Assembly (NCBI GenBank): GCA_902781515.1
Contig: CACZJU010000013.1
Span: 1 to 64,000, forward strand
Length of the DNA: 64,000 nucleotides
Direction: 5' to 3'
Origin: an uncultured Bacteroidales bacterium
GTDB taxonomy: Bacteria; Bacteroidota; Bacteroidia; Bacteroidales; Bacteroidaceae
Positions 11,387 to 63,759 of this stretch are shown piece after piece. The position numbers and the translations under genes are program-made. The number at the start of each line of letters is the position of its first letter. Position 1 is the first letter of the stretch. Below the pieces are notes generated by a model. The model did not search any database. It saw only the letters and a list, made by a program, of their open reading frames with translations, and had not been told where the DNA came from.

Positions 11387-14300
11387 TCAATTATTGCCAT
11401 GAATGACGATTTTTTGCGTTTTTGACGTTTTTTTACTATTCCCCTGACTCATCACAACCCTGTAAAAATATATGCCAGAACACAATCGGCCACCGCCTTG
11501 CATAGTCAGGTTCCAGGGAACAACTATTGTGCCGGAGGTACTGCCCGCAGTCAGCGAACGAGACCACATACGGCGACCTGCAAAGTCGAACACCTCAATT
11601 AGAACATCACAATCCGTACCCGGCATATTGTATGTGATTAGGAAATTGGTACTTGTTATTGCAGGATTCTGGCTTGACGCTACATGCATCATCGAGGGAC
11701 GCATGGCTGGGTCAACAACAAAGCTAAGTTGTGTTGACGATGAATTGTTGAGCACATCCCAAGCACGGAACTGTAGAGTATGATGTCCTTCAGAAAGTGC
11801 AGGAATGTTATAACCAACGGTTCCGTGTGTATAATCACCGAACTCCGGCGTGTAATAATCGTTGACGATATATGTCTGAGAAACATCACCATCAACAGTG
11901 AGAAGCATATCGTGACCAAGTCCCGAACCGCTGTAGCAGAGTCCGCTGGCATCTTCCAAATGTGCCACAAAGAAAGGAGTACTGTTGACATAGTCGCCAT
12001 CCTGGAAATTCTCCGTGTTCAAATATGCGAAGATTGTTGGACCTTGAGTATCATCGCTGATTGTTGGACTTACTCCTCCCACAAGGAAGGCCTCACTATA
12101 TCCGTTTGCCTCTGTTGTATTATTCTCGTCAATAGCATAGAACACCACGCGCCCCGACTGATCGCTGTAGTTAATATCTACAGGCATTACAAAAGATATA
12201 GTGAACTTACCATTCCTTACAGAATCCTGCCCTACAAAGAGCACCTTTTCACGATTCTCGAACTGGAAGGCTCCCTTGGAGGCGTTGTCATTATTCTTAC
12301 AGACAATAGTCTCAAGATTGTCATAGACACGAGATGAAAGCGAGCCTGTGAATCCATTGAGCAACTGACCGTCAGCATCCACAAGATGTCCGCTCATGCG
12401 CACACTCTCTCCTGCTCGCAGTTGCAGAGTCGTAGCATTGTCTTTAAGCGAGATTCCATTGATGCTGTCGAGAACTACACGATTGACGGGAGCTCCAAAC
12501 GTGAGGGCTGGATCACCCAACAAGGCATATTGCAATTTGTTCTCACGATGCGAGATTTCAATATTATTGTTGATGAGATAATTTTTGGCAAGACGTATGG
12601 CATCTCCTACACGATAGCGCCGCCCTGAAGCATCACATGCAAGCAGATAGTGCATAAACCAACGGTTCATTGAGAGATTCTCGTGAGCATACACAGTACG
12701 AGCTGTTCCATAGAAAGCCACCGCTGCCCCATCCTCGTTGAGAATAGCCGTTTCACCAATATTCTCAATCTGACCGTCGAAAGGCATAACATCACAGGCA
12801 GCAGTTATCCACAATGGCAGATGAGGACTCTTAAAATCAACAAAGTCCTGAAGCAAGAGAACATATTCGTGAGACATTGCATAGGTGCTTGCATGTCCTG
12901 TGTAGTTCATCACCAAAGCACCCTCTTTCATCTGGTCCTTAATGATTTTCTTTACCTTTGGATAGGTGTTGCTTGTAAGAGTGGTAACACGGTCATAGGC
13001 ATCCCACATTACCTTGCGAACCTCCATTTCAGGATTGTCTGTTTTAATGCGTTCGGCAATATCGTCAGCCATTTCAAGATGCTGATTGTTATCTCCGTCA
13101 TCGCCCAGAATACTAATAACGTTCTTCCAATCTCCGGCATTGCTGTTAGAGAGAAAATCTATTGTCTTATCAACAACTATACGAGCGTCGTTGGCTGAGG
13201 TTACAGGAAATCTTCCCACACCTATATCCACTTTGTCATTAAGGAGTCTATTACCCTCTCCATCATCGAGAAGTCCGAAATAGTCCTCCATAACGTAGCT
13301 TTGCGTAGCACTAAAGCTATTTTCGCTCTCGAAGCAGAGCAGATAATCATTGGGATTATAGTTGCGCCACCCAGTGCTTATCATTCGGTTATCCCAAGCA
13401 CAATCGCCAAAGAGCAACAGATAACGAGGTGCAACATCCATTGACTGAGCACGGTCGTACAGCATCTTCATCAAACGCCGATAAGCCGTAGCATCTGGAG
13501 TGCCGCTTGAAAACTCGTTGTAGATATGGTCGGCAGGCACGATTGCAACACGCAGACTATCATACTTAAGATGGGCTTCGGCAAGACGTTCGGCCTGTGA
13601 CGTCAGTTTTCCGCTGGCTGGCACGATTATCACCATATCTATGCTGTCGAGAGCATGCAGGTTCTGATTATCCACATTACCCACAACTGTTGGCTGAGGG
13701 AAAGCATACGAAGGGTCGAATGCCACATATCGGAGCGAGCCGTCGTCAACTGTTGCATCATAATAGACCTGACTACTTTGAGTACCATTAACCAAGGCCG
13801 CAGGCATATTGGGCTGTCCAATGCGCATCACCTTTACATTGCTACCAATAATGCGGAAAGCCGTTGGTTGGCTTGCTGATTGCGAAAAGGCGATGAAACC
13901 ATCGTTGCCAGTCGTAAGCAGTCGGTTGTAATGGAGTGCAAGATAATCGAGATGGGCATCGTTGCCTGAGGTTGTAGTCAGGCGAATAGTCCAGTCGGGG
14001 CCCGAAGACATAGAACTGACATCTATTGTACGCTCATTCTGCGTTGCGTAGATATACTGAGAAGTGGTTCCGAGTGTGGCATCGGCAAGTGCATTGCCAT
14101 TAACCATAGTAGAAAGCGTCGTCTTTGTCTCTGCTCCGGCTGTGAAGACAATAGTCAGTTGTTCACCTCCCGTGCTGTTCTTGGTACTCAGTTTATATAC
14201 GTGATTGTTGCCGTTTGCGTAGTTAGTGCCATCGTAGAGATTGCGTCCTCCGTGATACCACGCAAACTCGTCCTTCTCGTAAAGCACATGATCAACAGTA

Positions 14301-15124
14301 GTTGTGACAGCCTCTCCGACCGGTGTTTGTTCTGCCGTTACTGTCGCCAGCGTTGCAGGCTTATCGCCCTCTGTAAGAAAATAACAGGCCTTGGTGGCAT
14401 AAGGATTGAACACACGCTTGTTGTTCTGCCAATACACCAGTCCGTTGCCCCAAAAGAGCCACGTGTTGGCATCAGCTTTATAGAGCGGAACCTCCTGAAG
14501 GTCGTCATACTCGTTGTCAGGGTTTGAATATTCGGACAGACAATAACCGCCATGACCAAAAAGCCTGATATTATCAGGATTCGTGAAGCCCATCTTCTTC
14601 AGAGCAGTACGGGTAAGACGATACATTCCGTCTTCGGTAATGGCTATCTTCACCCACTTCCCTTCACTAAGCACGCTCTTGCGTGTATATCTCTCTGCGG
14701 AAGCGCCACCAGCACCCTTTGCCTTTAGACCTTTGTTTTTAGCCTTAGGGAGTATGGTAATACTGGCACTGACGAGTTTGCGGTATTGTGAGCCCTGACG
14801 AATAATAGGCACGAATGCAATGTCGAGATAGCCTTGCTTGCGGCTCACACTGACCGACGATGACACCTGCAGTTGTTCGGATATTGGTCGTCCGATACGT
14901 TCCAGGTGGCGTGTTTCTTCGGCTGTCAAGGGAGCCCATTCGGGATATTCAATGGCTACACTATAGTCATACAGACGATAGTCAGTTTCCAAAGGTACAA
15001 CCTCTGTATAAACTGGCAAAACAGAGTCTATGCGCAACTCATCCCAATCCAGCGTTGTGATGTTCTGCGCCTTTGCAAACCCGGCTATCAACAATAATAT
15101 GAATAATATACGTTTATCGCACAT
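11387..15124 (-). CDS. porU: Type IX secretion system C25 sortase PorU
   Basis: PorU is the cell-surface cysteine protease/transpeptidase that removes the C-terminal signal of T9SS cargo and attaches cargo to surface polysaccharide. From the ATG at 15124 the product is 1245 residues, a usual length. It has a signal peptide, an N-terminal beta domain, a gingipain-like C25 domain with His744 in NYTGHAS and Cys777 in TAACDVMPFD, then Ig-like modules and a T9SS-type tail (GIYFYRVV). The frame is open further upstream but lacks a signal sequence there, so MCDKRILF is preferred. The gene overlaps the end of the FAH-family gene by 11 nt and precedes porV. The segment KAKNKGLKAKG is encoded by 7-nt repeats. 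Confidence 0.93.
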   Translation of the reverse strand: MCDKRILFILLLIAGFAKAQNITTLDWDELRIDSVLPVYTEVVPLETDYRLYDYSVAIEYPEWAPLTAEETRHLERIGRPISEQLQVSSSVSVSRKQGYLDIAFVPIIRQGSQYRKLVSASITILPKAKNKGLKAKGAGGASAERYTRKSVLSEGKWVKIAITEDGMYRLTRTALKKMGFTNPDNIRLFGHGGYCLSEYSNPDNEYDDLQEVPLYKADANTWLFWGNGLVYWQNNKRVFNPYATKACYFLTEGDKPATLATVTAEQTPVGEAVTTTVDHVLYEKDEFAWYHGGRNLYDGTNYANGNNHVYKLSTKNSTGGEQLTIVFTAGAETKTTLSTMVNGNALADATLGTTSQYIYATQNERTIDVSSMSSGPDWTIRLTTTSGNDAHLDYLALHYNRLLTTGNDGFIAFSQSASQPTAFRIIGSNVKVMRIGQPNMPAALVNGTQSSQVYYDATVDDGSLRYVAFDPSYAFPQPTVVGNVDNQNLHALDSIDMVIIVPASGKLTSQAERLAEAHLKYDSLRVAIVPADHIYNEFSSGTPDATAYRRLMKMLYDRAQSMDVAPRYLLLFGDCAWDNRMISTGWRNYNPNDYLLCFESENSFSATQSYVMEDYFGLLDDGEGNRLLNDKVDIGVGRFPVTSANDARIVVDKTIDFLSNSNAGDWKNVISILGDDGDNNQHLEMADDIAERIKTDNPEMEVRKVMWDAYDRVTTLTSNTYPKVKKIIKDQMKEGALVMNYTGHASTYAMSHEYVLLLQDFVDFKSPHLPLWITAACDVMPFDGQIENIGETAILNEDGAAVAFYGTARTVYAHENLSMNRWFMHYLLACDASGRRYRVGDAIRLAKNYLINNNIEISHRENKLQYALLGDPALTFGAPVNRVVLDSINGISLKDNATTLQLRAGESVRMSGHLVDADGQLLNGFTGSLSSRVYDNLETIVCKNNDNASKGAFQFENREKVLFVGQDSVRNGKFTISFVMPVDINYSDQSGRVVFYAIDENNTTEANGYSEAFLVGGVSPTISDDTQGPTIFAYLNTENFQDGDYVNSTPFFVAHLEDASGLCYSGSGLGHDMLLTVDGDVSQTYIVNDYYTPEFGDYTHGTVGYNIPALSEGHHTLQFRAWDVLNNSSSTQLSFVVDPAMRPSMMHVASSQNPAITSTNFLITYNMPGTDCDVLIEVFDFAGRRMWSRSLTAGSTSGTIVVPWNLTMQGGGRLCSGIYFYRVVMSQGNSKKTSKTQKIVIHGNN

Positions 15125-15731
15125 TGAACTCCAATACTTTCTTTCCTTCGAGGTAGCCCTCCAGATGATCACCCTCTTTTACAGGTCCCACGCCAACAGG
15201 TGTTCCGGTATATATGAGATCACCCATCTTCAGGGTGAAGAACCGGCTGATGAAACTTACTATCTCGTCCACCTTGAACATCATGTCAGCAGTGTGTCCC
15301 CTCTGCACTGTCTCGCCATTACGGTCGAGGTGGAAGTGCAGGTTCTGCACATCAGGATAGTTTGCCAACGGCTGCATCTCACCTATCACCGCACTGCCGT
15401 CGAATCCCTTGCTCAACTCCCATGGAAGCCCTTTCGCACGCAACCTCTGTTGCAAATCGCGGGCCGTGAAATCTATGCCCACTGTCACCTGGTCGTAGTA
15501 CCTATGTGCCCAGCGCGGCGCAATACTGCGCCCAAGTCGGCAAATCCTGACCACCAGTTCCGTCTCATACTCGCATTGCTGCGTGTATTCGGGTATGAAA
15601 AACGGCTTTCCTCCCGTCAATAACGCAGAATCGGCCTTCGTGAATATTACGGGCTCCTCTATATTTAATAACGTACCATGAAGCTCTTTATTGTGCTCCA
15701 GATAGTTCATTCCAACTGCAAATATCTTCAT
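15114..15731 (-). CDS. Fumarylacetoacetate hydrolase family protein
   Basis: This 205-residue protein has the FAH fold signature, with the metal-binding pattern ETELVVR in the middle and GDLIYTGTPVGVGP near the C-terminus. Compact members of this size act on acylpyruvates or oxaloacetate tautomers; the substrate cannot be told from sequence. It is the first gene of the unit that continues with porU, porV and ispF, and its end overlaps porU. A TATTTTTG element (15747-15740, minus) lies just upstream as a possible -7 box. Confidence 0.85.
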   Translation of the reverse strand: MKIFAVGMNYLEHNKELHGTLLNIEEPVIFTKADSALLTGGKPFFIPEYTQQCEYETELVVRICRLGRSIAPRWAHRYYDQVTVGIDFTARDLQQRLRAKGLPWELSKGFDGSAVIGEMQPLANYPDVQNLHFHLDRNGETVQRGHTADMMFKVDEIVSFISRFFTLKMGDLIYTGTPVGVGPVKEGDHLEGYLEGKKVLEFNVR

Positions 15732-20808: not shown

Positions 20809-21195
20809 TTATTTCCCGTAGTCGAAATCTTGCTGTTCCCACGCATCCCAGTCAATATCAGAGAGATAGGACGCTATTTGGCTGGCAAGTGGTGCAAGGT
20901 CCTCATTTATAACCTTCCATACTTCACGAGAACTTATCTGGTAATAGTCGTGAACCAGCACATGACGCATCTTGATAATGTATGGCCATGGGGTTTCGCT
21001 ATGTTGTTTGCGAAATGGTTCTGAGAGTTTATATGCAGCTTCTCCTATGATTTCAATGTTTTTCACAACTGCAAAATACAAGACTTTATCCGTCGCAAGT
21101 TCGTCGGATGTTTTGCCATTTGTGAAGCTTAATATGTAGTTGATTGCCGTTTGAATATGTTCCAAGCGGCCGCGGTCTCTAACGGGCTCTCTCAT
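20809..21195 (-). CDS. hepT: HepT-like ribonuclease toxin (DUF86)
   Basis: HepT-family proteins are HEPN-fold RNases neutralised by a partner MntA nucleotidyltransferase, which AMPylates a tyrosine. This 128-residue protein is all-helical in pattern. It keeps the RX4HXY motif as Arg77, His82 and Tyr84 (RHVLVHDY), so the active site and the likely AMPylation site are intact. Its start overlaps the end of the partner gene by 17 nt. The family includes non-toxic members, so toxicity is inferred. Confidence 0.88.
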   Translation of the reverse strand: MREPVRDRGRLEHIQTAINYILSFTNGKTSDELATDKVLYFAVVKNIEIIGEAAYKLSEPFRKQHSETPWPYIIKMRHVLVHDYYQISSREVWKVINEDLAPLASQIASYLSDIDWDAWEQQDFDYGK

Positions 21196-21484
21196 AGATA
21201 AGTTTTTTATCGCGATTCGCAGATTTTACAGCAAACGGAAGTAATGTGCCCTCTTCTACAATATCGACTGGACGCTTTAATTTTTCTTCCAAATCGACAA
21301 TCATAGCAGCGTGTTTTAACAGACTAATACCATCCTCATCATAAGTGACGAGGATATCCACATCGCTGTCTGGCGTCTCTTCACCTCGGGCGTATGAACC
21401 AAATAGCCAAGCACGTACTACGGGTTGAGTCTCGAAATACTCGGCAATCTTTCGTGTCATAGTCTGTGTACTCATATTCTTCAC
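21179..21484 (-). CDS. mntA: MntA-like minimal nucleotidyltransferase antitoxin
   Basis: The 101-residue protein is a minimal nucleotidyltransferase with the GSX10DXD motif: Gly29-Ser30 (FGSYARGE) and Asp41/Asp43 (DSDVDIL). In the known MntA/HepT systems it AMPylates HepT and blocks its RNase. The ATG at 21475 (MSTQ) is an alternative start. It lies upstream of hepT with overlap and has its own consensus promoter. Confidence 0.88.
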   Translation of the reverse strand: MKNMSTQTMTRKIAEYFETQPVVRAWLFGSYARGEETPDSDVDILVTYDEDGISLLKHAAMIVDLEEKLKRPVDIVEEGTLLPFAVKSANRDKKLIYERAR

Positions 21485-21763: not shown

Positions 21764-21934
21764 TTAATCAAACAAGTCCCATCCCTTGTCAGATTTAACA
21801 TCTCCGTATTCGTCATCATCTACGTTTTGAGCACCTTCAAATAAGGTTGTACCATTACCAATAGATTGGGCAATAAACCCGACCATATTTACAGCAACGA
21901 CATTAACTGATGGGCTAATATATGTCTTTTTCAT
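21764..21934 (-). CDS. Small acidic peptide, MKKxYIxP type (56 aa)
   Basis: From the ATG at 21934 the peptide is 56 residues and starts MKKTYISPSVNVVAV. A short hydrophobic middle follows, then an acidic end (NVDDDEYGD...GWDLFD). It is a paralogue of the 54-residue peptide at 58019-58183 by start pattern and composition, and both lie just 3' of a large T9SS cargo gene on the same strand. The gap here is 44 nt. I know no assigned function. The frame extends 10 codons upstream, but the MKK start aligns with the paralogue. Confidence 0.65.
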   Translation of the reverse strand: MKKTYISPSVNVVAVNMVGFIAQSIGNGTTLFEGAQNVDDDEYGDVKSDKGWDLFD

Positions 21935-21978: not shown

Positions 21979-24900
21979 TCACTTTACTACAACTTTACGT
22001 CCATTCACGATATACAGACCCTTTTGAGCCTTCTGAACGCGCTGACCGGCGAGGTTGTAGATAGCCTCATTCTTGTTAAGGTTATCGTTAAGGTTTACAA
22101 TGCCTGTAGCCTCATCATCTATGAATATATCATTCTCAAAGAAGGCCTTAACGGGAGAGTCTGCATCTACAGTAAAGTAAGCACGGAAGCCCTGCAGTTT
22201 CTGTTTGCCATTGCCAGATGACTTCTTGATAGTGTTTGACTTCACATAGTAAGCATTCCCGGGAATAACAAACTCGCGTGCATAGTTACCTACGAAGTTC
22301 ACACCATTTTGACTAACAGTGGGAGTGGGATCGGGAACCTCAATCTCAACACCATAGAAGGTAAAGCTGCTCTTTGCAGATGAAACTCTCACCAGAACAG
22401 GCGTATTAGCTGTGATTGCAGGTGTTTCCATCGGAGTGAATGTTACACCAGTCTTATCGTCAGCAGAGAACTCAGATACCTCCACATCATCACCGAACTG
22501 TTCTTTCAGCGTAGCATTGTCAATATTGAAGGGAACCACGAAGGTTGACCATGTATCAGCTGCGATGTTACGTGTAAGGGTAACATCCACACCCTCAAGA
22601 GCAACTGGAGAATAAGCAACATCCTCATCGAGTTCGTATGCTCCTTCGCTACCGATGCTATAAAGACGGAAACGGTCCCAAGACATCCAGAAGTCTTTAT
22701 CGCTCGTAGTGTTGTCACCAACAATAGTGATTGTAGCATTACCAAAGGCTTTCTGTTCGAATACTACGTAGAAGTCGTTCCATCCACGATCGAATACACC
22801 ATTTTGGTTACCCATTGCTGTTAGAGCAACCTCCTCTGTTTCACCTGCATTGTTGGTCACCTGCATCTTATAAGAATCGATTCCATTCTGAGCGCGAGCA
22901 GTTACACTAAGGATATAGTTACCCTTTGCAAGTTTGATAGTCTGACTGGTAGTGAAACTCTTCACACCATTCTTATCAAAATAAGTGTTCGTCGTATTGC
23001 CATTAGCCTCGGTGTAGGCTTCGCCGTCTGCTGTCCAGAAGGATTCGCTCCAACCTGCAACATTTGAGCCATCAGCATTCGTGATAAGGTTCGTGCGAGC
23101 TTTACCCGGAACATTCTCAGCAATGGCATTGCTCTCGTATGCAGCACGGTTGGCGGTGTTAATGGCAGTTGTCTGAGTGGCAGCTTCAGCTGCGGTATTA
23201 ACAGTAGCATTCTTTGCGGTTGCCACAGCATCAATCTTTGTAGAGGTAGCATACGGAAGAGCCCAGGCCGTGATAGCATCTGCATATCCCTTAACACGCA
23301 CATATGAATCATATGCATCTTTTGCTTCTTTAAAGGCAGAAGTCGCTTCGTTCAAAGCCGTAGTCACAGAAGAATAAGAGTTGCCTGAAGCTTCAGGGTC
23401 AAGGGCGATAGCTTCAGACAAAGCTGTCAACTCATCTCCTGTAACATTGACATACGTTGTATTACGTGCATCGTATGCTGCATTAGCAGCAGCAATAGCT
23501 ACATTATAAGCCAACTTAGCTTCAACATCAGGACTATTCGTCTGCAGTGTATAGTCACCAAAGCTTGCCCAGCAATGATTTGCAGTAGCCACAACATTAA
23601 CGGCAATGTTAACAGTCGTCTCAGAATCCAACGTGAACTTTACATAGCGCCATTCCCAACCATAGCCATTACCATTGTTGGCATATGCACTGGCATCCTC
23701 ATTAAAGCTCGTTTCACCACTCTTGTTGATACCACGGGATGAGTTACTGCGTGGAAAGTCATTAACAGTTCCAAGTTCTGAATCATCTGAAGTGTCAGTA
23801 ACAACAAGACTTGTGGTAACATGTTCATCTGTTGCTTGACGAGCTGCTACCTTGAAGATATATTCACCTGCAGGTAGCAATACGTTCTGATTAAAATTGA
23901 TGCTCCAAGAATTAGCATTCCATCCCTGACCATTACTGTCGTTCTGGTTCTTATAATTACGTGTTGTGCCGCTCCAGTGTTCATTATTAAAGTTGGCAGC
24001 ACTTGTATTTGTTCCTGACGAAGTCCATGTATCACTTAGTTCAACGCTATAACTATAGTTTGTTGTTACATAAGTATATTCGGCTTCCTTCAAGTCCTGC
24101 AATGCACGAAGACCAGTCTTTGTGTTTGGTGTGGCCTCAGCGATAGCCTCATTTGTCATACCAAGGTTAGAAGCCTTAGTCTTCTCTGTCTCAAGAAGAG
24201 CATAATTAGGAGCTGCAGCCACGAAAGCGTCAATCAAGCTACGTAAGCGACCATTGATGTCTTCATAAGCATCAGGGGAAGTGGTGTCAAAAGTTTCATC
24301 AAGGGCAGCGTTAAGATCGGTCAACTCTTTACCGAGCACACCAGTATAAGTACTCTTTGCTGTTCCTGCTTCAGAAACGAGGCCATTATAAGTAGCTATA
24401 TAAGATGACAAGTCTAGAGGACCAGTATAAAGAAGGTTTCCAATCTGAATAATATGCCAGTTAGCACCATTAGCTGTGGCATTCATACCAATTTTCAGAG
24501 AATGAGTGGTGACTTCACAATCGAGCGTATATAAATCAAGTGTACCACCTGCAACTGAGCCCTGTGTTGCCAGCCCAACATCTTGTGTTGCATCATTAGC
24601 ATATAATTGAGCAACTATTGTTCCATCAGCAGGCTTGTCACCAGAAACTCCATTGGCATTAGAAGCCTCTGCCCACAATGTAACGCGATAGTTTCCGTTT
24701 TCAAGTCCAGTGATTGTTTGAGTTAAGCGATCGTTTTCGACAATATTTGTCGTACTTCCATTATATGTTTCGCGAAATTGAATACCCCACTGAACGGTTG
24801 TACCTGCTACATTCCAAGCCAAACTTGCCTTGTCGGTAAGGGCGAGAGGATTTTCTGAAGAAGCTTCATAGCTCGCACCAAGATAATAAAGACGGAAATT

Positions 24901-25968
24901 GTCACACTTGAACCAGCTATAAGAGGTAGCACCAATTTCCATAGAACCATTTGAAACGTATGCTACAGCAGTAGTAATATCCTTTCCAGTTCCTTTGTCG
25001 CTAGCGGAATCATACACCTTACCGTTGCCGCAATAAACCTGAATGTTCTGGTACTGGTCAGATGCTATCAGCGCGGTCAGTTTATAGTAACCATCGGGAA
25101 GGCCCTTTACAGATTGTGAAACCTTGTAAGGAGCAGTACCACCCCAAATGTTGAATACATAGCTGCCATCAACGCCGGTTGTAGCATAAGTAGCATTGCT
25201 ATTCGATTTTGCGCCCTTGTCAGAACCGCTTTGAATCGTCCAGCATGCAGGCGATGCTGTCTCAGTTCCATCATTCTCAAACGAATGGTTGCGAATCATA
25301 TCTGTCACATCTAAGGGACTGGCTGCAGTTATCGAAGAAGGATCAGAGACATACTCCAATTTAACATCGTCCAGCAAGAAGCTAAAATGCCTACTTCCTG
25401 CATCGCTTCCAGGATATAACATAGCAGCTTTAATGGTGAGGCTTGTGGCATCAGATGCTTTTACCAACATGACACTCCATTCATTCCACTTAGACGAAGT
25501 GCTTGTGATGCTATTGATTACAGCATCCTTTCCTTCTTCCTGTAGAGAGAGCGTAAATGTAGATGTCTGACTCGCAAAATTGGCCATCTTTACAGTCAAT
25601 TTATAGAGGCCGTTAGGAACATTTGCTGCGGCAATTGTCTGAGCAATAGAGAACTCTTTATTGGCATTCCAATTCTGGCGAACATAAAAATATTTATCAC
25701 CAGCACTTGGGTTAAAGCTTGAGCCTATACCCTGAATCTTTGAAGTCGAATTACCTATGCCAACCTGAGCATTGCTGGCTGAAGCGGGCAATACCGTCCA
25801 ACCAGTCACTCTGTCTGTTGCCCATCCACAAGTGGTAAGATCACTTGTTGCAGCATCCGTTTCAAAGGAAGGATTGGTGATGACAGATGTCTTATCCGTC
25901 CATTCTACGGCATAGGTGTTGACCCATGCAATGGTGCAAAGCACCGCGAAAAGTAGTTTTCTTTTCAT
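21979..25968 (-). CDS. Large secreted multidomain protein with T9SS sorting tail (1329 aa)
   Basis: The protein has a signal peptide (MKRKLLFAVLCTIAWVNTYA). Several related beta-sandwich modules follow, each opening with patterns like NPSFETD or RNHSFENDG and containing NGxYxLT, as in carbohydrate-binding jelly rolls. A helical FIVAR-like stretch rich in Ala lies around 810-890. It ends with a T9SS tail, EAIYNLAGQRVQKAQKGLYI then VNGRKVVVK. It is probably a surface-exposed glycan-binding or adhesive protein. I see no catalytic domain. Its tail is nearly the same as that of the protein at 58197. A consensus promoter lies about 295 nt upstream, so the 5' UTR is long. Confidence 0.75.
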   Translation of the reverse strand: MKRKLLFAVLCTIAWVNTYAVEWTDKTSVITNPSFETDAATSDLTTCGWATDRVTGWTVLPASASNAQVGIGNSTSKIQGIGSSFNPSAGDKYFYVRQNWNANKEFSIAQTIAAANVPNGLYKLTVKMANFASQTSTFTLSLQEEGKDAVINSITSTSSKWNEWSVMLVKASDATSLTIKAAMLYPGSDAGSRHFSFLLDDVKLEYVSDPSSITAASPLDVTDMIRNHSFENDGTETASPACWTIQSGSDKGAKSNSNATYATTGVDGSYVFNIWGGTAPYKVSQSVKGLPDGYYKLTALIASDQYQNIQVYCGNGKVYDSASDKGTGKDITTAVAYVSNGSMEIGATSYSWFKCDNFRLYYLGASYEASSENPLALTDKASLAWNVAGTTVQWGIQFRETYNGSTTNIVENDRLTQTITGLENGNYRVTLWAEASNANGVSGDKPADGTIVAQLYANDATQDVGLATQGSVAGGTLDLYTLDCEVTTHSLKIGMNATANGANWHIIQIGNLLYTGPLDLSSYIATYNGLVSEAGTAKSTYTGVLGKELTDLNAALDETFDTTSPDAYEDINGRLRSLIDAFVAAAPNYALLETEKTKASNLGMTNEAIAEATPNTKTGLRALQDLKEAEYTYVTTNYSYSVELSDTWTSSGTNTSAANFNNEHWSGTTRNYKNQNDSNGQGWNANSWSINFNQNVLLPAGEYIFKVAARQATDEHVTTSLVVTDTSDDSELGTVNDFPRSNSSRGINKSGETSFNEDASAYANNGNGYGWEWRYVKFTLDSETTVNIAVNVVATANHCWASFGDYTLQTNSPDVEAKLAYNVAIAAANAAYDARNTTYVNVTGDELTALSEAIALDPEASGNSYSSVTTALNEATSAFKEAKDAYDSYVRVKGYADAITAWALPYATSTKIDAVATAKNATVNTAAEAATQTTAINTANRAAYESNAIAENVPGKARTNLITNADGSNVAGWSESFWTADGEAYTEANGNTTNTYFDKNGVKSFTTSQTIKLAKGNYILSVTARAQNGIDSYKMQVTNNAGETEEVALTAMGNQNGVFDRGWNDFYVVFEQKAFGNATITIVGDNTTSDKDFWMSWDRFRLYSIGSEGAYELDEDVAYSPVALEGVDVTLTRNIAADTWSTFVVPFNIDNATLKEQFGDDVEVSEFSADDKTGVTFTPMETPAITANTPVLVRVSSAKSSFTFYGVEIEVPDPTPTVSQNGVNFVGNYAREFVIPGNAYYVKSNTIKKSSGNGKQKLQGFRAYFTVDADSPVKAFFENDIFIDDEATGIVNLNDNLNKNEAIYNLAGQRVQKAQKGLYIVNGRKVVVK

Positions 25969-57965: not shown

Positions 57966-57992
57966 CAGCCCGACAGGGATACTGCCGGGCTG
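57966..57992 (-). terminator. Hairpin downstream of the 54-residue peptide gene
   Basis: CAGCCCG-A-CAG pairs with CTG-C-CGGGCTG (57966-57976 with 57982-57992), one mismatch. On the minus strand it is followed by TTTCG. It is a probable terminator of the T9SS-cargo/peptide unit. Confidence 0.6.
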
Positions 57993-58018: not shown

Positions 58019-58183
58019 TTAATAATCTTCTTCGTCATCCCAATCAAACGCCGATTGACGAACACCGAATTCGTCTGAACTTGTAATAGATTGGTTTTTA
58101 TCTAATACAGCCGAAAGAGCCATCATTTCTGTTGTGGCAACATTAACGACCTTAGCTTGAGGAATAATATATATCTTTTTCAT
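58019..58183 (-). CDS. Small acidic peptide, MKKxYIxP type (54 aa)
   Basis: The peptide begins MKKIYIIPQAKVVNVATTE, has a hydrophobic MMALSAVL and an acidic aromatic end (AFDWDDEEDY). It shares start pattern, size and acidic end with the peptide at 21764-21934. It lies 13 nt downstream of a T9SS cargo gene on the same strand, the same arrangement. It has no typical signal peptide and no Gly-Gly leader. I know no function; it could be a precursor, a chaperone-like partner or a regulator. Confidence 0.65.
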   Translation of the reverse strand: MKKIYIIPQAKVVNVATTEMMALSAVLDKNQSITSSDEFGVRQSAFDWDDEEDY

Positions 58184-58196
58184 AGTCCTGCCCTCC

Positions 58197-60146
58197 TTAC
58201 TTTACAACCATTTTCTTACCATTCACAATGTACAGACCACGAACGGGCTTCTCCACACGCTGACCAGCGAGGTTATAAATAGCCTCTTTTTCAATTTTCA
58301 ATTTTCCATTTTCAATTGAATTTATTCCAGTTTCCTCATCATCACCAAAAGAGAAAACAAGCTGACGTATATCAGCAGGGAGTTCCACCTCTAAGTATGC
58401 CTTGTTGCTTGGTATTGTCACTTGGGTCGGGTCAAATGCTGCGAATGTGAGTGGGTCACTATTCTTCACCATACCGAAATAGGTATAGCCAGATTCTGGA
58501 GTAAACGTACCACCATCGGTATTTACCCGAAGTAAGTTACCTTCGAGATCTGAACCACTTTCGTCAGAGACTGGAATGTAATAAGTTGAGCCTGCTGTAC
58601 CAGCTAGTAACAGACCAGTATTGGCAGGAACAACCTGAGAAGCGGCTTCTGTAAATCTTACCATATCATTATCATTCACCTTGTGAACCAACGTTGCCTT
58701 GTATGCCGTCAAGCCATCAGGCAAATCACCCAAATCCAAATTCCAAGGACTTGCAAACGTCGCAAATCCATTTTCATCAATTTGCACCGGAGCGTTCTTT
58801 ACCGTTGTCGATGTGATGGTCATTTTCGGCAGATTAGTAACATAACTTCCACTATTTGCACCATCATTATGATAGCGACATGTATTTCCACCTGAACTTA
58901 ATGCATACCAAGACAAATAAGATCCTGTACCTGCGGTCGTTTGTTTTATACCTATCTGTAGATTTCCACCATTATAGTTATATGGCGTATCGAATTCTAT
59001 CTCCATCTCACCACCACTTACAGAAATAGCGGCACTGTTGAAAACCTTTACCCCCCAGTTAGAAGTAAGAGAAGTACTATAGGTAGTATTGCTAACTTCA
59101 TTCAAGTATACCTCAAACGTTGCCTTTCCAAAGGTCTTGCTTGATGTTGAAGAATAGAATGTGAGTTTTGTTATCTGTCGACCAGAAACCGCACTGAGGC
59201 TTGAAGAAGGTATGATAAACTGAGATCTGAGCAACTGAGACGCCGAACTACCATAGAAAGGCACATAAGCATTTGTGCTTGTTGTCATGTTAATATCAGT
59301 TTCAAATTCAGCACGTGGTACAAAACTAATCATATCTGTCCATTCGCTATAATGACCACCACCATAGTCTGCACGGATAGCAGCATAATAGGTAGTACCT
59401 TCGTCTAAACCTGATAAAGTATAAGGATTAGCTGTAATATTAAGAGTCGTTCCGTCAGTTCCAGGGGTAAAACTTGAGCTAGTTGAATAAGCAAATTGCC
59501 AAGCAGTCTCACTGTTACCTGCAGACCAACTAAAAGTGGCAGAGTTCTCGGTATAAGAACTAATTGAAAAATTTGTAGGGGTCTTGTAAGGGTTTATGGC
59601 TGAGACGTAAATATCATCAATATACAGGTGGCACGAAGCCGCAGTTGCCGTATATTTAATGGCTATATGTTTCGTTCCTGTTTCGAATGAATAACTGCAT
59701 AATGTATAACCGCCTTTATAGGATATTTCTTCTTCCCAATCAAAATCAGAGATTGATGGATTTTCTTTTGTTGAATGACCAACATAAAAGGTTGTGGTAT
59801 AATTGCTTGATAAAGATCTATAATAAAAAGAAACATCTATACCCGTAGGCGAAGGGGTCAATTCTGGTGAAATAAGATATTGGGGAGTATAATCAGAACT
59901 TGCTGAAAAGCGAAAGCAATATGATCCTGTACGATATATTGAGCTTATAATACCCGTATAACCAGAATAAATATTTGATGTTGTCCAGCCTTCACCTGCA
60001 AGGTTGTTATTCTCAAAACCATAGCTATAAGGAAGTGTTTTCCCATCAGCGAATGCAGAAGTTGCCCCCCCCAGGATGAAGGTGAGGAGGAGGGTGAGCC
60101 GAGTGAGGAGGCTGCGACCCGAGTTAAAAAGTCTAAAGTGTTTCAT
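58197..60146 (-). CDS. Secreted choice-of-anchor/FN3 protein with T9SS tail (649 aa)
   Basis: The protein has a signal peptide (to about SAFA) and a MAM-like choice-of-anchor J domain (about 38-185, ending LYIDDIYVSAI). A fibronectin type III domain (about 190-275) and another beta domain follow, then a T9SS sorting tail (EAIYNLAGQRVEKPVRGLYI). The linker before the tail (ENGKLKIEK) is encoded by 7-nt repeats. The signal-peptide region contains a run of eight G. It is probably a surface adhesin or glycan-binding protein. A consensus promoter lies about 90 nt upstream and a small peptide gene 13 nt downstream. Confidence 0.8.
   Translation of the reverse strand: MKHFRLFNSGRSLLTRLTLLLTFILGGATSAFADGKTLPYSYGFENNNLAGEGWTTSNIYSGYTGIISSIYRTGSYCFRFSASSDYTPQYLISPELTPSPTGIDVSFYYRSLSSNYTTTFYVGHSTKENPSISDFDWEEEISYKGGYTLCSYSFETGTKHIAIKYTATAASCHLYIDDIYVSAINPYKTPTNFSISSYTENSATFSWSAGNSETAWQFAYSTSSSFTPGTDGTTLNITANPYTLSGLDEGTTYYAAIRADYGGGHYSEWTDMISFVPRAEFETDINMTTSTNAYVPFYGSSASQLLRSQFIIPSSSLSAVSGRQITKLTFYSSTSSKTFGKATFEVYLNEVSNTTYSTSLTSNWGVKVFNSAAISVSGGEMEIEFDTPYNYNGGNLQIGIKQTTAGTGSYLSWYALSSGGNTCRYHNDGANSGSYVTNLPKMTITSTTVKNAPVQIDENGFATFASPWNLDLGDLPDGLTAYKATLVHKVNDNDMVRFTEAASQVVPANTGLLLAGTAGSTYYIPVSDESGSDLEGNLLRVNTDGGTFTPESGYTYFGMVKNSDPLTFAAFDPTQVTIPSNKAYLEVELPADIRQLVFSFGDDEETGINSIENGKLKIEKEAIYNLAGQRVEKPVRGLYIVNGKKMVVK
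60065..60072 (-). repeat. Homopolymer run of eight G in the signal-peptide coding region
   Basis: Eight consecutive C on the plus strand encode the Gly-Gly of FILGGATSA. A one-base slip would shift the frame near residue 28. Confidence 0.85.
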
Positions 60147-60276: not shown

Positions 60277-61434
60277 TTATTCGAGGACTTTGGTGAGCTT
60301 GACGTTGACATAGGTGCCGAGGTCCTCACCAGCTTGAGTGAAGCGGATGTCGGGCATGGTGGCAGTCTTCAGGGAGAAACCGTCGGCAACGGCTGTTGCC
60401 TCTTCACCAATGGGGTCGATGAAGGTTACAGTCTTCTTTGTGAAGTTGAACGAAGGCATCAGTATGTCTCCCTTCTTGGTAAGAGTGAGAGAAGCATCGT
60501 AGGAGCAGTCGCCAGCAAAGATGAAGTTCTGATATTCGGCATCCTGATGGAGCACGATGAAGACATAACCCTGACTGACTCCGTCGAGTGTCTGTCCGTT
60601 GGAGATGCGGAGAGAACCGTCGCTGCCCATAGCCACAGGAATGGGATAGGTGGGATTGAGGCCCTTGAGGTAGATGTAGCTCTTGGTGTTCTCTGCCTCT
60701 ATCTCTATGCGCTGTTTCTCGGTTCGAGTAACGGTCTTGAGACCATCAGAGATGGTGTGAGTATAGGTGATATCGTACTGACCAGCTACAGAACGCTTGC
60801 CGAACTGACGGAACTTTATGGTCTTGCTGCCCTGACTGCTCTTGATGGTGACATTACCCTCACGAGCACCACCAGTATCGTTGGTGTGCAGATGAAGTTG
60901 ATAACCGTCCTCCACTTCCTCGCCGTCCATCCAATCAGGCTTGGTTACGGTGTAATCAAAGTCGAGAGTGGCAGGAATGACGATGGTGGTATCTTCGTCG
61001 GAAGCCGAATAGCTGGTAGCTCCACGCACCATCCACACTGCCCCACTCTGAATAAGGGACAGACGTACGCTGTCGCGACTGGAACGAAGAGTTACGATTG
61101 CGTTACGACCATCGAGCTGGGTATTGCGCTCAACGACAACCTTCACTTTGTTGCTATCAACAGAGACTGTGCACCAGTCCTTATTCGTCGAAGCTGTTAT
61201 CTCCTCGGGACAACTAACCTCAACCATACTACTGTCGGCCTTGGGACCGAACACCAAATCGGCACTAACGACTTTCAGATAGCCATTACCTTGACTGACG
61301 AAACCCACTACGGGATCATCGTCACCACAGGAAGCAAATAGAATTAAGAATGAAGAGTTAAGAATTAAGAATAGCAATACTCTCCACGCACTCACGCGCC
61401 TTCCTATATATATATTATTGTATCTCATTTTCAT
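60277..61434 (-). CDS. BACON-domain lipoprotein, SusD-operon associated
   Basis: The 385-residue protein has a lipobox (LFASC) and BACON-type repeats (about 55-130, LKVVSADLVFGPKADSSM; and about 135-215), domains thought to bind glycans or mucin. A C-terminal beta region follows. It is the last gene of the run from susD. Its first 30 residues (NNIYIGRRV...WRVLLFLILNSSFLIL) are nearly identical to those of the gene at 62839, at DNA level too, and include a 7-nt repeat. Confidence 0.8.
   Translation of the reverse strand: MKMRYNNIYIGRRVSAWRVLLFLILNSSFLILFASCGDDDPVVGFVSQGNGYLKVVSADLVFGPKADSSMVEVSCPEEITASTNKDWCTVSVDSNKVKVVVERNTQLDGRNAIVTLRSSRDSVRLSLIQSGAVWMVRGATSYSASDEDTTIVIPATLDFDYTVTKPDWMDGEEVEDGYQLHLHTNDTGGAREGNVTIKSSQGSKTIKFRQFGKRSVAGQYDITYTHTISDGLKTVTRTEKQRIEIEAENTKSYIYLKGLNPTYPIPVAMGSDGSLRISNGQTLDGVSQGYVFIVLHQDAEYQNFIFAGDCSYDASLTLTKKGDILMPSFNFTKKTVTFIDPIGEEATAVADGFSLKTATMPDIRFTQAGEDLGTYVNVKLTKVLE
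61341..61375 (-). repeat. 7-nt repeat in the BACON lipoprotein signal region
   Basis: AGAATTA/AGAATGA/AGAGTTA units encode LILNSSFLI on the minus strand. The unit that would create a TAA stop in this frame is changed to read TCA. Confidence 0.8.
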
Positions 61435-61468
61435 TTCCTTTAGCCTTTTGCCATTTGCCTTTAGCCTT

Positions 61469-62803
61469 TTACAACTTTAGCGCGAACCACTTCTCGGCGT
61501 CGGCAACACTTACTGCCTTCACGTATTGCGGATTTTGTATATTGTCGAACTGCATCTGGAACGGAGTATTGTTACGGATGAAGTCGAGCATGGGAGTGAA
61601 CTGTGGATAGTTGTTGGTGTAGAGACCGCCGTCGAGAATGCGGATGTCTATTACCATATTATCCTCATCTGCCACCATCATGTCCAGTCCGTAACGAAGC
61701 TCGTACCACACACCCACCATAGATGTACTGGTGCTCCAACCGATAACCATGCGCTGAGCATCGTCCTCGATGTTCTGTTTGTTCATACCGATGTAAATAT
61801 CATCGACATTCTCGTTGTTCTCCTTCGTGGTACGCTGAATGGCGGTCTTAACGATTTCGCGCAACTCGTCGCACATATCGTACTTAGCATCGGTGGTGCC
61901 ATAGATGAAGTGCCACTGAGTGACTGTGCCGCAGAACTGCTCGAGAGGTGTGGGCAGAGGCAACTGCATACGACCGTCGGGAGAAGTAAGGTCGTGGGAT
62001 GTGGTGTCGAAAGTCAACTCCGATTCCGTAACTCCTGCAATAGTGATGGGCTGATAGAAACGGATGCCCGTGGGAGTGTAGATGTAAGGAATGTCCTTGT
62101 CTGCACCATCTTCGGTATATTGGAAGTGACTGCTCATGACCGTGACATTCACCGACTTTCCATCTACTACAGCACGCTTGCGAGGAATGCTGCTCAGAGT
62201 GGTTCGCATCTGAATGACATCGTTGATGTAGGTGCTGGCACTCTCCTGAAGAGGATAGAGACGAAGCAGGTTGCCATACTTGCGACCGCGAAGCACAATC
62301 TCGTCGTCAGAAGCCGAAACAAACATGAACTCATAGTCGGTGGCAAGACCTTCGGAATTGGTACCGGAGGGTTGCGACCAATAGTGCATGAGTGGATTGT
62401 AGGTGTCGAAGGTGAGCATAACACCCTGACCTGCAATAACATGATATTCGGACTTTACCACCTGACCGGCAGCATACTTCTTCTTGTCGCCCTTGGCATT
62501 ATCGATGAGCATCTCAGAGGACAGCTCCACCTCATCGCCAACGAAGCGTGCCGTATAGGCAATGCCTCCCAACACCAAGTCGCTGGGATAGAAGTCCATA
62601 GCCCATCCATCGCTCTTCGACGTAAGAAGGGCCCTATACTTTTCGATGGCTTGCTGCTGACGTTCGGCAGGCGATGCCCCGAACACATTGTCCTCGTGGG
62701 GCGAGCATGCCATAAAAATGAAAAGTGAAAAGTGAAAAGTGAAAAACAGCAATACTCTCCACGCCTTCACACTCTTTCCTATATATATATTATCCTTTCT
62801 CAT
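61469..62803 (-). CDS. DUF4302 lipoprotein, SusD-operon associated
   Basis: The 444-residue protein begins MRKDNIYIGKSVKAWRVLLF, then a repeat-encoded hydrophobic stretch and a lipobox (FMAC). The mature start matches the DUF4302 pattern FGASPAERQQQAIEKYRALL with GWAMDFYP. These proteins occur downstream of SusC/SusD pairs in Bacteroidales; their job is not established, and glycan or peptide binding at the surface is plausible. It lies between the metallohydrolase and BACON lipoprotein genes. Confidence 0.8.
   Translation of the reverse strand: MRKDNIYIGKSVKAWRVLLFFTFHFSLFIFMACSPHEDNVFGASPAERQQQAIEKYRALLTSKSDGWAMDFYPSDLVLGGIAYTARFVGDEVELSSEMLIDNAKGDKKKYAAGQVVKSEYHVIAGQGVMLTFDTYNPLMHYWSQPSGTNSEGLATDYEFMFVSASDDEIVLRGRKYGNLLRLYPLQESASTYINDVIQMRTTLSSIPRKRAVVDGKSVNVTVMSSHFQYTEDGADKDIPYIYTPTGIRFYQPITIAGVTESELTFDTTSHDLTSPDGRMQLPLPTPLEQFCGTVTQWHFIYGTTDAKYDMCDELREIVKTAIQRTTKENNENVDDIYIGMNKQNIEDDAQRMVIGWSTSTSMVGVWYELRYGLDMMVADEDNMVIDIRILDGGLYTNNYPQFTPMLDFIRNNTPFQMQFDNIQNPQYVKAVSVADAEKWFALKL
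62713..62746 (-). repeat. 7-nt repeat (GTGAAAA) in the DUF4302 lipoprotein signal region
   Basis: ATGAAAA/GTGAAAA units encode FFTFHFSLFIF on the minus strand. Confidence 0.8.
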
Positions 62804-62838
62804 TTTCTCATTCTCTCATTATCTCATTTTCCGATAGC

Positions 62839-63759
62839 CTAATTCACGCTGTCAATATCAATCTTGCCTGCTACAACATCGTTGATGCGACGTTGCAGTA
62901 CATCGCGCATTTCGTCGATATCGATGTCCCAAGCCGTTTGCATATACTTACGGATGATGTTTAACTTGCGAGTGATGATGGCCTCGCCCTCTTCGCCTGC
63001 CAGCTTCATCTTCGAAGTCCACTGGGCTTGAGTGTAGATGAGGTAGTAGGACAGAGTTTCGGCAAAGTCCTCGTTGTACTCACTCATGGCATAGGCCGTG
63101 ATGAAACCAGCAGCCAACGCATCGGATTCGTACTTATTTGACCAGTCACCTGTGATGTAGCTGCCATCCGATATGGTGCGGAACTCCGTATCGTACTCCT
63201 TGTTCTGCGTGAGGATGTGCGTGAACTCGTGGTGCATAATCTGGAAATAGGTGTTGAGGGTGCTGCGGTCGTTCTTGAAGAAGTTGACGGCATAGAGCGT
63301 AACCTTCATACCATTCTCGGCAGTACCCATGACAACGGTACCCTTCTTGTTGTGGGCATTTGAACCAACCAACTGGATTATCTTAGGCACATACTTACGA
63401 GTGAACTTGATGCCTGCCACCTCGTCGTAGGCCTGCAGCCAACAGTAGAGCACAGTGTGAGCCACCTTGATGGAGTTCTCCGTTGTAGCCGGCACAAGTG
63501 AATACTGATAGTCGGTTTCCTTGTCCTCAAGACAATACTTCAAGTCTATGTTATAAGGCATAACATAGTTCTCGTAGAGCCAGTTGTCGAATGGCTTGCT
63601 TGATGAAGGGTTGTCCTGGAAGATGCTGGTCTTGCTCAGCTCCTCTTCGGAGCAGGACGTATATAAAATTAAGAATGAAGAGTTAAGAATTAAGAATAGC
63701 AACACTCTCCACGCTTTCACTCGCCTTCCAATATATATATTATTGTATCTCATTTTCAT
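62839..63759 (-). CDS. Substrate import-associated zinc metallohydrolase lipoprotein
   Basis: The 306-residue protein has a lipobox (YTSC, about Cys36) and the zinc motif HEFTH (His177-His181) within FQIMHHEFTHILTQ. A downstream region typical of these SusD-linked lipoproteins (ALAAGFITAYAMSEYNEDFAE) supplies a likely third ligand. It probably acts on an imported peptide or glycan substrate at the outer membrane. It starts 34 nt after the susD stop, the gap being a 7-nt repeat array (CTTTTGC type). Confidence 0.87.
   Translation of the reverse strand: MKMRYNNIYIGRRVKAWRVLLFLILNSSFLILYTSCSEEELSKTSIFQDNPSSSKPFDNWLYENYVMPYNIDLKYCLEDKETDYQYSLVPATTENSIKVAHTVLYCWLQAYDEVAGIKFTRKYVPKIIQLVGSNAHNKKGTVVMGTAENGMKVTLYAVNFFKNDRSTLNTYFQIMHHEFTHILTQNKEYDTEFRTISDGSYITGDWSNKYESDALAAGFITAYAMSEYNEDFAETLSYYLIYTQAQWTSKMKLAGEEGEAIITRKLNIIRKYMQTAWDIDIDEMRDVLQRRINDVVAGKIDIDSVN
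63665..63700 (-). repeat. 7-nt repeat in the metallohydrolase lipoprotein signal region
   Basis: The sequence is nearly the same as 61341-61375 and encodes LILNSSFLI. Confidence 0.8.

Follow-up and report, generated by a model that had tools for sequence, protein, structure and literature searches.

Type IX secretion cargo with a shared domain ahead of the tail, followed by an acidic peptide: sequence evidence pointing to an undescribed two-part system in Bacteroidales

The two loci and their sorting tails

The window analysed here is a stretch of 64,000 nucleotides (nt) from an uncultured Bacteroidales bacterium (assembly GCA_902781515.1, contig CACZJU010000013.1, positions 1 to 64,000). It contains two loci, at about 58 kb (locus 1) and 22 kb (locus 2), in which a gene for a large protein with a tail like those of the type IX secretion system (T9SS) is followed by a gene for a short acidic peptide. 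Our comparison points to an undescribed two-part system, consisting of the peptide and of T9SS-tailed cargo sharing a segment directly ahead of the C-terminal sorting domain (CTD), here called the pre-CTD domain. The rumen and many human guts commonly harbour Prevotella-like bacteria, much of whose surface is uncharacterised; a peptide that tracks one cargo domain would give a direct experimental handle on the export or assembly of a class of surface proteins. The features are, in amino acids (aa) or nt:

58019-58183, minus strand: peptide gene 1, 54 codons plus stop, MKKIYIIPQAKVV...DWDDEEDY (this copy is included in the peptide profile)
58192-58198, minus strand: strong Shine-Dalgarno site AAGGAGG, overlapping the stop codon of cargo 1 (TAAGGAGG), 9-15 nt ahead of the peptide ATG
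58197-60146, minus strand: cargo 1, 649 aa, with signal sequence, fn3 domain (aa 189-270), pre-CTD domain and T9SS-like tail
58290-58838, minus strand: pre-CTD domain of cargo 1, profile E 1.2e-39 (copy included in the profile), 5e-27 with a profile from 13 other cargos
58200-58283, minus strand: T9SS-like tail of cargo 1, last 28 aa, IYNLAGQRV..GLYIVNGKKMVVK, assigned also from the co-occurrence of such tails with PorU
57966-57992, minus strand: G+C-rich stem-loop immediately 3' of peptide gene 1, a possible terminator that the terminator scan did not call
21764-21934, minus strand: peptide gene 2, 56 codons plus stop, MKKTYISPSVNVV...GWDLFD (this copy is included in the peptide profile)
21979-25968, minus strand: cargo 2, 1329 aa, with signal sequence, pre-CTD domain and T9SS-like tail, and no Pfam domain above cut-off
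22066-22596, minus strand: pre-CTD domain of cargo 2, profile E 3.6e-33 (copy included in the profile), 7e-17 with the 13-cargo profile
21982-22065, minus strand: T9SS-like tail of cargo 2, last 28 aa
21610-21623, minus strand: terminator-like stem-loop with TTTTT, 3' of peptide gene 2
11387-15172, minus strand: porU, the T9SS sortase, 1261 aa, NF033707 at 1012.7 bits (cut-off 420)

The four open reading frames (ORFs) of the pairs lie as the initial annotation had placed them, all on the minus strand, with peptides of 54 and 56 codons and gaps of 13 nt (cargo 1 to peptide 1) and 44 nt (cargo 2 to peptide 2). The order is that of domain, tail, stop codon, short gap or overlap, and peptide, with the terminator-like stem-loop behind the peptide at locus 2, where the region 3' of the peptide gene holds four terminator-like sites (both strands) against 0.4 expected from shuffles. 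An alternative in-frame ATG is possible 10 codons upstream for peptide 2, and the start at 21934 was chosen because of homology. Both cargos begin with a Sec-type signal sequence (judged by eye), and the near identity of their sorting tails was also read correctly at the outset, since both end in EAIYNLAGQRV..GLYIVNG.

The presence of porU inside the window indicates that the organism possesses a T9SS. The NCBIfam model of the T9SS type A sorting domain, TIGR04183, matches the PorU of the same window, and it gives no match to cargo 1 or cargo 2 at E ≤ 1. The tail was therefore assessed by its co-occurrence with PorU, using the DNA pattern of G-x-Y-I-x-N-G-x-K scanned across 81 genomes of the family, which were called PorU-positive when they had a match over the cut-off. 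The pattern had 615 matches in the 54 PorU-positive genomes compared with 14 in the 27 PorU-negative ones (p 8.5e-11), and ten of these 14 come from one 84%-complete genome, G183. The claim that both cargos carry a T9SS tail thus rests on the tail motif and on PorU co-occurrence, whereas the family model does not support it. One study gives the CTDs of T9SS cargo a length of 70-100 residues and a beta-sandwich fold (PMC11285876), and another describes a Paraprevotella surface protein that is exported by the T9SS and recruits trypsin (PMC9477747). The last 159 aa of the cargo gave a predicted model (pLDDT 68) too poor to assign a fold to the C-terminal part, and without a PDB match at E ≤ 0.001.

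The linker ahead of the tail at 58283-58330 is encoded by a near-repeat, ATTGAAAATGGAAAATTGAAAATTG, found at the equivalent place in other tailed genes of the genus, with about 85-100% match across some 30 nt in many genus genomes; similar near-repeats seem, by eye, to encode parts of signal sequences. When the 58-kb locus was searched against the genus, the matches listed outside the own copy were short pieces, many of them on the tail linker, and no full-length orthologue was among the matches listed (104 of 139 genus genomes with matches).

Recurrence of the pair and its dependence on the pre-CTD domain

The initial annotation reported the pair from two loci, and it proved far more general. 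In the own genome (2.46 Mb) the DNA pattern for MKKxY(x)xP has 10 matches and the reversed control pattern none; nine of the ten are peptides of 52-74 aa, all nine directly behind a T9SS-tailed gene, and the tenth lies inside a 280-aa ORF. A peptide profile that combined the two window peptides with 13 of other organisms found 12 peptides in this genome at E ≤ 5, again all behind tailed genes (12/12). The same pattern in named genomes gave 15 stretches. The 13 from Bacteroidales encode peptides of 45-71 aa, each of them preceded at 8-180 nt by a gene that ends in such a tail (13/13, tails judged by eye); the other two, from Ulvibacterium and Treponema, are chance matches of 19 and 11 codons. 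Across the 81 family genomes there are 113 pattern matches in the PorU-positive set versus 13 in the PorU-negative set.

A further set was drawn from 17 genomes of the family and order searches. It comprised every match from 16 genomes with at least three matches (including G111, which belongs to another family) and one of the three matches from G132; G139 and G178, with three matches each, were left out. Its 80 distinct ORFs were reduced to 66 of peptide size, one recurrent unrelated ORF type being dropped, and to 62 with 5' sequence. A tail profile whose training set consisted of 16 own tails, all of them peptide-less, placed a tail on the nearest 5' ORF in 41 and on any 5' ORF in 42 of these 62, which agrees with the proposed enrichment of T9SS cargo beside such peptides in other genomes. 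The pre-CTD domain was found 5' in 44 of the 62, and tail and domain together in 41. Applied to window ORFs of at least 200 codons, the same tail profile matched two of 54, namely cargo 1 and cargo 2. The cargo-peptide gaps have medians of 18-33 nt in four sets, and some pairs overlap by 4 nt.

The idea that T9SS cargo is the partner stands for a linked class but not for T9SS cargo generally. The tail pattern matches 32 places in the own genome, one of which (C11:8119) was dropped, as its reading frame is unlike that of the other tails and it may be a broken gene. Fourteen of the remaining 31 tailed genes are followed at 1-105 nt by an MKKxYIxP-type peptide of 52-77 aa, and 17 are not, which rules out every T9SS-tailed cargo as partner; in four other genomes 43 of 60 tail sites lack a peptide. 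Several of the own peptide-less T9SS cargos (L313, L316, L319, L322, L324) are papain-type, C10 or M6 peptidases, GH43 or other glycosidases.

Aligned with each other, the linked cargos have in common an unnamed segment of about 150 aa directly ahead of the tail, with the motifs (Y/W)xTxxLPF, GxxAY, PA(N/G)T(P/G), NxLxG, YxL, FY, (R/K)AYL and TGI. A domain profile trained on the 13 named cargos after trimming of their last 30 residues recognised all 31 peptide-linked cargos (14/14 own and 17/17 from G132, G181 and G184) and only 8 of 57 unlinked ones (2/17 own and 6/40 from four other genomes, G137 included), with a pooled Fisher p of 1.1e-16 after three fragments below 150 aa had been dropped. 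The determinant is thus the pre-CTD domain and not the tail. In agreement, 41 of the 42 tail-bearing 5' neighbours of peptides in 16 family genomes and G111 carry the domain, and a count over 11 genomes puts a minimum of 52 of their 74 peptides no more than 900 nt 3' of a same-strand domain, with about 0.16 expected (weaker domain matches excluded). The domain is present in 12/12 PorU-positive genomes and in 0/26 PorU-negative ones (19 of the 26 at least 90% complete), and also in G183.

The pair is kept across genera and in a second family. Genome G111 has 25 domain sites, five of which adjoin peptides already found by pattern (five of its six pattern peptides adjoin a domain, by coordinates), and when the 15 best-scoring of the other 20 sites were read, 14 had a peptide at -4 to 62 nt. 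This brings the pairs to 14 for the own genome and 19 or more for G111. Of 119 genomes covering 118 families of the order, seven contain the domain, with 21 copies in the own genome, 25 in G111 and one or two in each of five others. The two genomes with at least 20 domains are also the highest for the peptide pattern (10 and 6 matches; the next, G080, has 3), and in one remote family a KKQYEKP...LLSGS peptide starts 6 nt behind a single domain. Taken together, the peptide gene adjoins its cargo gene on the same strand and in a constant order, its coding sequence is conserved, and its presence follows the domain rather than the tail.

Such a distribution could in principle have arisen by hitchhiking, with domain, tail and peptide spreading together as cargo 3' ends were copied between loci and with no functional link between them. 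Several near-identical paralogous pairs inside genomes would be in line with this, as would the recurrence of the tail-linker stretch at high identity across many genus genomes. However, the pairs persist despite divergence (peptide identity to the first sequence is mostly 20-35%), they are kept in the other family (14 of 15 read) under purifying selection, and none of 49 domain-less tailed genes tested has a peptide although the 3' end is the same. We regard copying without function as distinctly unlikely.

The best two matches of the domain itself among PDB sequences are at E 0.45 and 0.56, and the Pfam matches listed for linked own cargos fall outside the segment. With the peptide, it makes two families gained here for which Pfam and NCBIfam have no model. 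A restriction of linked cargo to non-enzymatic proteins was suggested by the own genome, where a catalytic Pfam domain was found in 0/14 linked and 5/13 unlinked cargos scanned (the unlinked L311, L318, L320 and L321 not among the 13), and was weakened by the other genomes, in which the 17 linked cargos include M60 and NAGLU_C; the unlinked cargos there include GH2, GH16, GH20, GH95, C10 and M6 among the matches listed.

The peptide family and its relatives outside T9SS genomes

The 60 members compared have a median length of 56 aa (42-74). M1, K2, K3, Y5 and P8 are near-invariant and are followed by a V/V/hydrophobic stretch at 12-15, (M/I)(I/L)(A/C)xS at 20-24 and then a variable acidic part, with information content peaking at 1-3, 5, 6, 8, 21 and 24 and low past 24. 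The net charge is about +2 over the first 25 residues and about -6 afterwards, and a Trp is found within the last 20 residues of 49 of the 60 peptides. No signal sequence or lipobox is evident by eye. An AlphaFold2 model has an extended N-terminus (pLDDT about 80) and a short helix at 17-26. The 60 peptides belong to no Pfam or NCBIfam family (nine families match one member each, best E 0.027), and have no match among PDB sequences at E ≤ 1.

Fifteen close pairs, one of them from a PorU-negative genome and two without synonymous change, gave on pooling a nonsynonymous proportion (pN) of 0.10 and a synonymous proportion (pS) of 0.28 (pN/pS about 0.36), with a third-position excess in most pairs, which is the pattern of purifying selection at the sequence level. 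The N-terminal and C-terminal halves are both constrained (pN/pS 0.32 and 0.38), and the peptides are for this reason very probably translated. It might be argued, from the lack of a Pfam or NCBIfam family, that they are conserved spurious ORFs or that an RNA element lies behind the cargo gene, but the third-position excess, the pooled pN/pS, residues conserved across families and the strong Shine-Dalgarno sites make this extremely improbable.

Seven of the nine own pattern peptides have Shine-Dalgarno complementarity of at least 7 nt, while only 1 of 35 window genes has at least 6 nt. Such sites are notable because the ribosomes of Bacteroidia mostly fail to recognise Shine-Dalgarno sequences, as one study describes (PMC9976891). 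For tail-linked peptides of other genomes 4 of 45 reach 6 nt, so that Shine-Dalgarno control as a universal trait is ruled out and strong sites are frequent only in the own clade. The own sites (e.g. 58192-58198) may possibly be linked to bS21-dependent translation (PMC9976891).

The peptide family is wider than T9SS, since genomes lacking a PorU match have related peptides as well, and the tie to T9SS that was originally proposed must be limited in this respect, although the pairs do recur. In 12 of the 27 PorU-negative genomes the peptide profile found matches at E ≤ 1, 38 in all, of which roughly half scored worse than 0.01. Four of 30 PorU-negative loci stand behind a tailed gene, all in the incomplete G183, and at other loci the peptide is found 5' of lipoprotein-like genes (L224, L226, L228, L229, L231, L232, L234, L239, L240, L244, L246, L251). 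When eight of the lipoprotein-like proteins were scanned, two were Mfa_like_1 fimbrillins over the cut-off. A fimbrillin-like nature of the pre-CTD domain found no support, there being no profile match against a thin alignment of seven. It appears from this sample that the N-terminal motif is spread more widely, and that it is paired with the pre-CTD domain in T9SS genomes only. Three of the lipoprotein-linked peptides (L224, L234, L251) are downstream of a gene with a GYGYGYG-type tail, and L121 and L150, two loci of PorU-positive genomes, have the peptide behind a gene with, by eye, a fimbrillin-like end. Some weak matches, L233 (G148) and L241, L248 and L252 (G171), are longer Cys-containing ORFs of the form MVMKNTYVKPEMQVEEF...YVAAC or MKKIYEKPAMQAEAF...CADC. 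One of these, L233 (E 0.056), lies 18 nt before a gene that looks radical SAM-like by eye.

On account of this neighbour, the MK..Y..P start might represent a leader common to this family and to precursors like those of ribosomally synthesised and post-translationally modified peptides (RiPPs). The whole family could accordingly be read as leader-core precursors, in which residues 1-24 (MKKxYIxP...VV...MLAxS) are a leader for a common exporter or protease, and the acidic Trp-containing rest is the product, which is released or displayed and is synthesised alongside a surface protein serving as its carrier or recipient. This would fit the information content concentrated in the first 24 positions, the change of charge, the frequent Trp and the same start in genomes without T9SS. 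The peptides would resemble RiPP precursors in having a conserved, leader-like N-terminal part and a variable C-terminal part. Unlike in RiPP systems, inspection by eye of the surroundings of the two window peptides, the two neighbourhoods covered, revealed no gene for modification or export. The C-terminal half is moreover nearly as constrained as the N-terminal half, and the radical SAM neighbour belongs to one weak match. We consider the precursor reading unlikely.

The peptide could also be a regulator, which, translated in step with the cargo, reports cargo synthesis or a block of secretion and adjusts the expression of surface proteins. The short gaps and 4-nt overlaps suggest translational coupling, the strong own Shine-Dalgarno sites might respond to bS21-poor ribosomes (in keeping with PMC9976891), and the peptide pairs with two unrelated classes of surface protein. 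Against this, no nucleic-acid-binding signature was seen in the peptide, the Shine-Dalgarno sites are an own-clade trait, and a partner would better explain why every cargo has a paralogue of its own that goes with a cargo domain. We believe that regulation is very unlikely to be its role. Even if the peptide were a regulator or a secreted product, an own partner for each of 14 to about 20 cargos per genome would be an unusual design.

A possible cognate partner, known systems and neighbouring genes

The reading that we favour, with a probability of about 0.42, is that the peptide is a cognate partner of the pre-CTD domain, encoded beside it and coupled to it in translation, and that it probably escorts the cargo or times its export. 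It is favoured because there is one peptide per cargo, tied to one domain, an arrangement expected of a partner but not of a global regulator. The genes of cargo and peptide would then form one transcription unit with translational coupling, and the peptide would be synthesised as the C-terminal domain of the cargo emerges from the ribosome. The N-terminal half of the peptide, which is basic and extended (MKKxYIxPxxxVVxV, followed by MLAxS), may bind the pre-CTD domain or the machinery of export, and the acidic tail with its Trp might keep the complex soluble or specific. The likeliest effect would be to hold, escort or time this class of cargo before or during Sec/T9SS export, in a mode that may be likened to dedicated secretion chaperones or to the PorP/SprF partners of type B cargo.

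Several observations weigh against a cognate partner. Seven of the 21 own domain copies have no peptide (14 have one); these seven score lower than the linked copies, partly by construction because the profile contains the 14 linked copies. The five other domain loci in the five genomes of other families with one or two copies also have no peptide seen behind them. Conversely, 17 of the 62 pattern peptides have neither tail nor domain 5', including three of one PorU-negative genome (L161-L163) and two near a contig end (L114, L126). At 12 of 30 loci in PorU-negative genomes a gene with a lipoprotein-like start begins 3-62 nt after the peptide, and seven of these lipoproteins have no profile similarity to the pre-CTD domain. 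The peptide model shows no fold (pTM 0.24), one of the 15 close pairs has a dN/dS of 1.33 and the pairs are partly non-independent. Co-variation of peptide and domain in the 14 own pairs is weak (Mantel r 0.25, p 0.015), and lies below that of the peptide with the N-terminal 40 aa of the cargo (r 0.45). Finally, the peptide has no evident Sec signal although the cargo leaves the cell, so that any contact would have to be early or by another route.

It is tempting to go further and propose a new T9SS sorting class, in which a bipartite signal (the pre-CTD domain, probably beta-rich, and the short tail) is combined with an own peptide for each cargo. The peptide, translated immediately after the cargo, would here be needed for holding, secretion or anchoring. 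This we put forward tentatively and as rather doubtful. If it were true, peptide-dependent sorting would be a main route of surface building in these bacteria, judging from the number of pairs in the own genome and in G111, and the lipoprotein-linked peptides of relatives without T9SS would be the same helper adapted to pili.

PorP/SprF proteins are cognate and usually clustered partners of type B T9SS cargo according to the available text of a review, in which the word chaperone is absent (PMC10202324). The present pair resembles those described there (SprB-SprF; PG1035) in that the cargo class is set by the C-terminus and a dedicated partner is usually encoded in the same cluster (PMC10202324). 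In contrast to the PorP/SprF beta-barrels of the outer membrane, the partner is here an acidic peptide of 42-77 aa in which no signal is evident, and the cargo has a short tail of the GLYIVNGKK type, unlike type B cargo; the window peptides, at 54 and 56 aa and with no NCBIfam match, do not belong to the PorP family. The KLIKK proteases of Tannerella are T9SS cargo with small co-encoded partners, the potempins, which are larger secreted or lipoprotein protease inhibitors. The pair is similar in combining T9SS cargo with a small co-encoded partner, but no signal or lipobox was seen on the peptide by eye and none of the 14 own linked cargos has a protease Pfam match. Type III secretion chaperones are small, acidic and encoded beside their cargo, and are folded dimers that bind N-terminal regions. 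The peptide is likewise small and acidic and adjoins the cargo gene, but at about 55 aa it is smaller than these chaperones, has no fold in the model, and is tied to a C-terminal domain. There is also a likeness to the Mfa1/FimA-type fimbrillin operons of Bacteroidales, in that PorU-negative relatives have such a peptide immediately 5' of lipoprotein-like genes. In T9SS genomes the order is the reverse, with the cargo first, and the pre-CTD domain has no profile similarity to the lipoproteins of those relatives. Among the open-licence papers listed we found none on a small peptide paired with T9SS cargo, searches with literal peptide starts included.

Two neighbouring regions of the window may be added. 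At 60277-63759 on the minus strand there are three consecutive lipoprotein-like genes with a near-identical and unusual N-terminus, MKMRYNNIYIGRRV(S/K)AWRVLLFLILNSSFLIL with the variant MRKDNIYIGKSVKAWRVLLFFTFHFSLFIF, the last of which encodes an LP_HExxH_w_tonB metallohydrolase lipoprotein. Beyond peptide gene 2, at 20809-21484 on the minus strand, two overlapping small genes resemble, by eye, an MNT nucleotidyltransferase and HEPN-type toxin-antitoxin pair.

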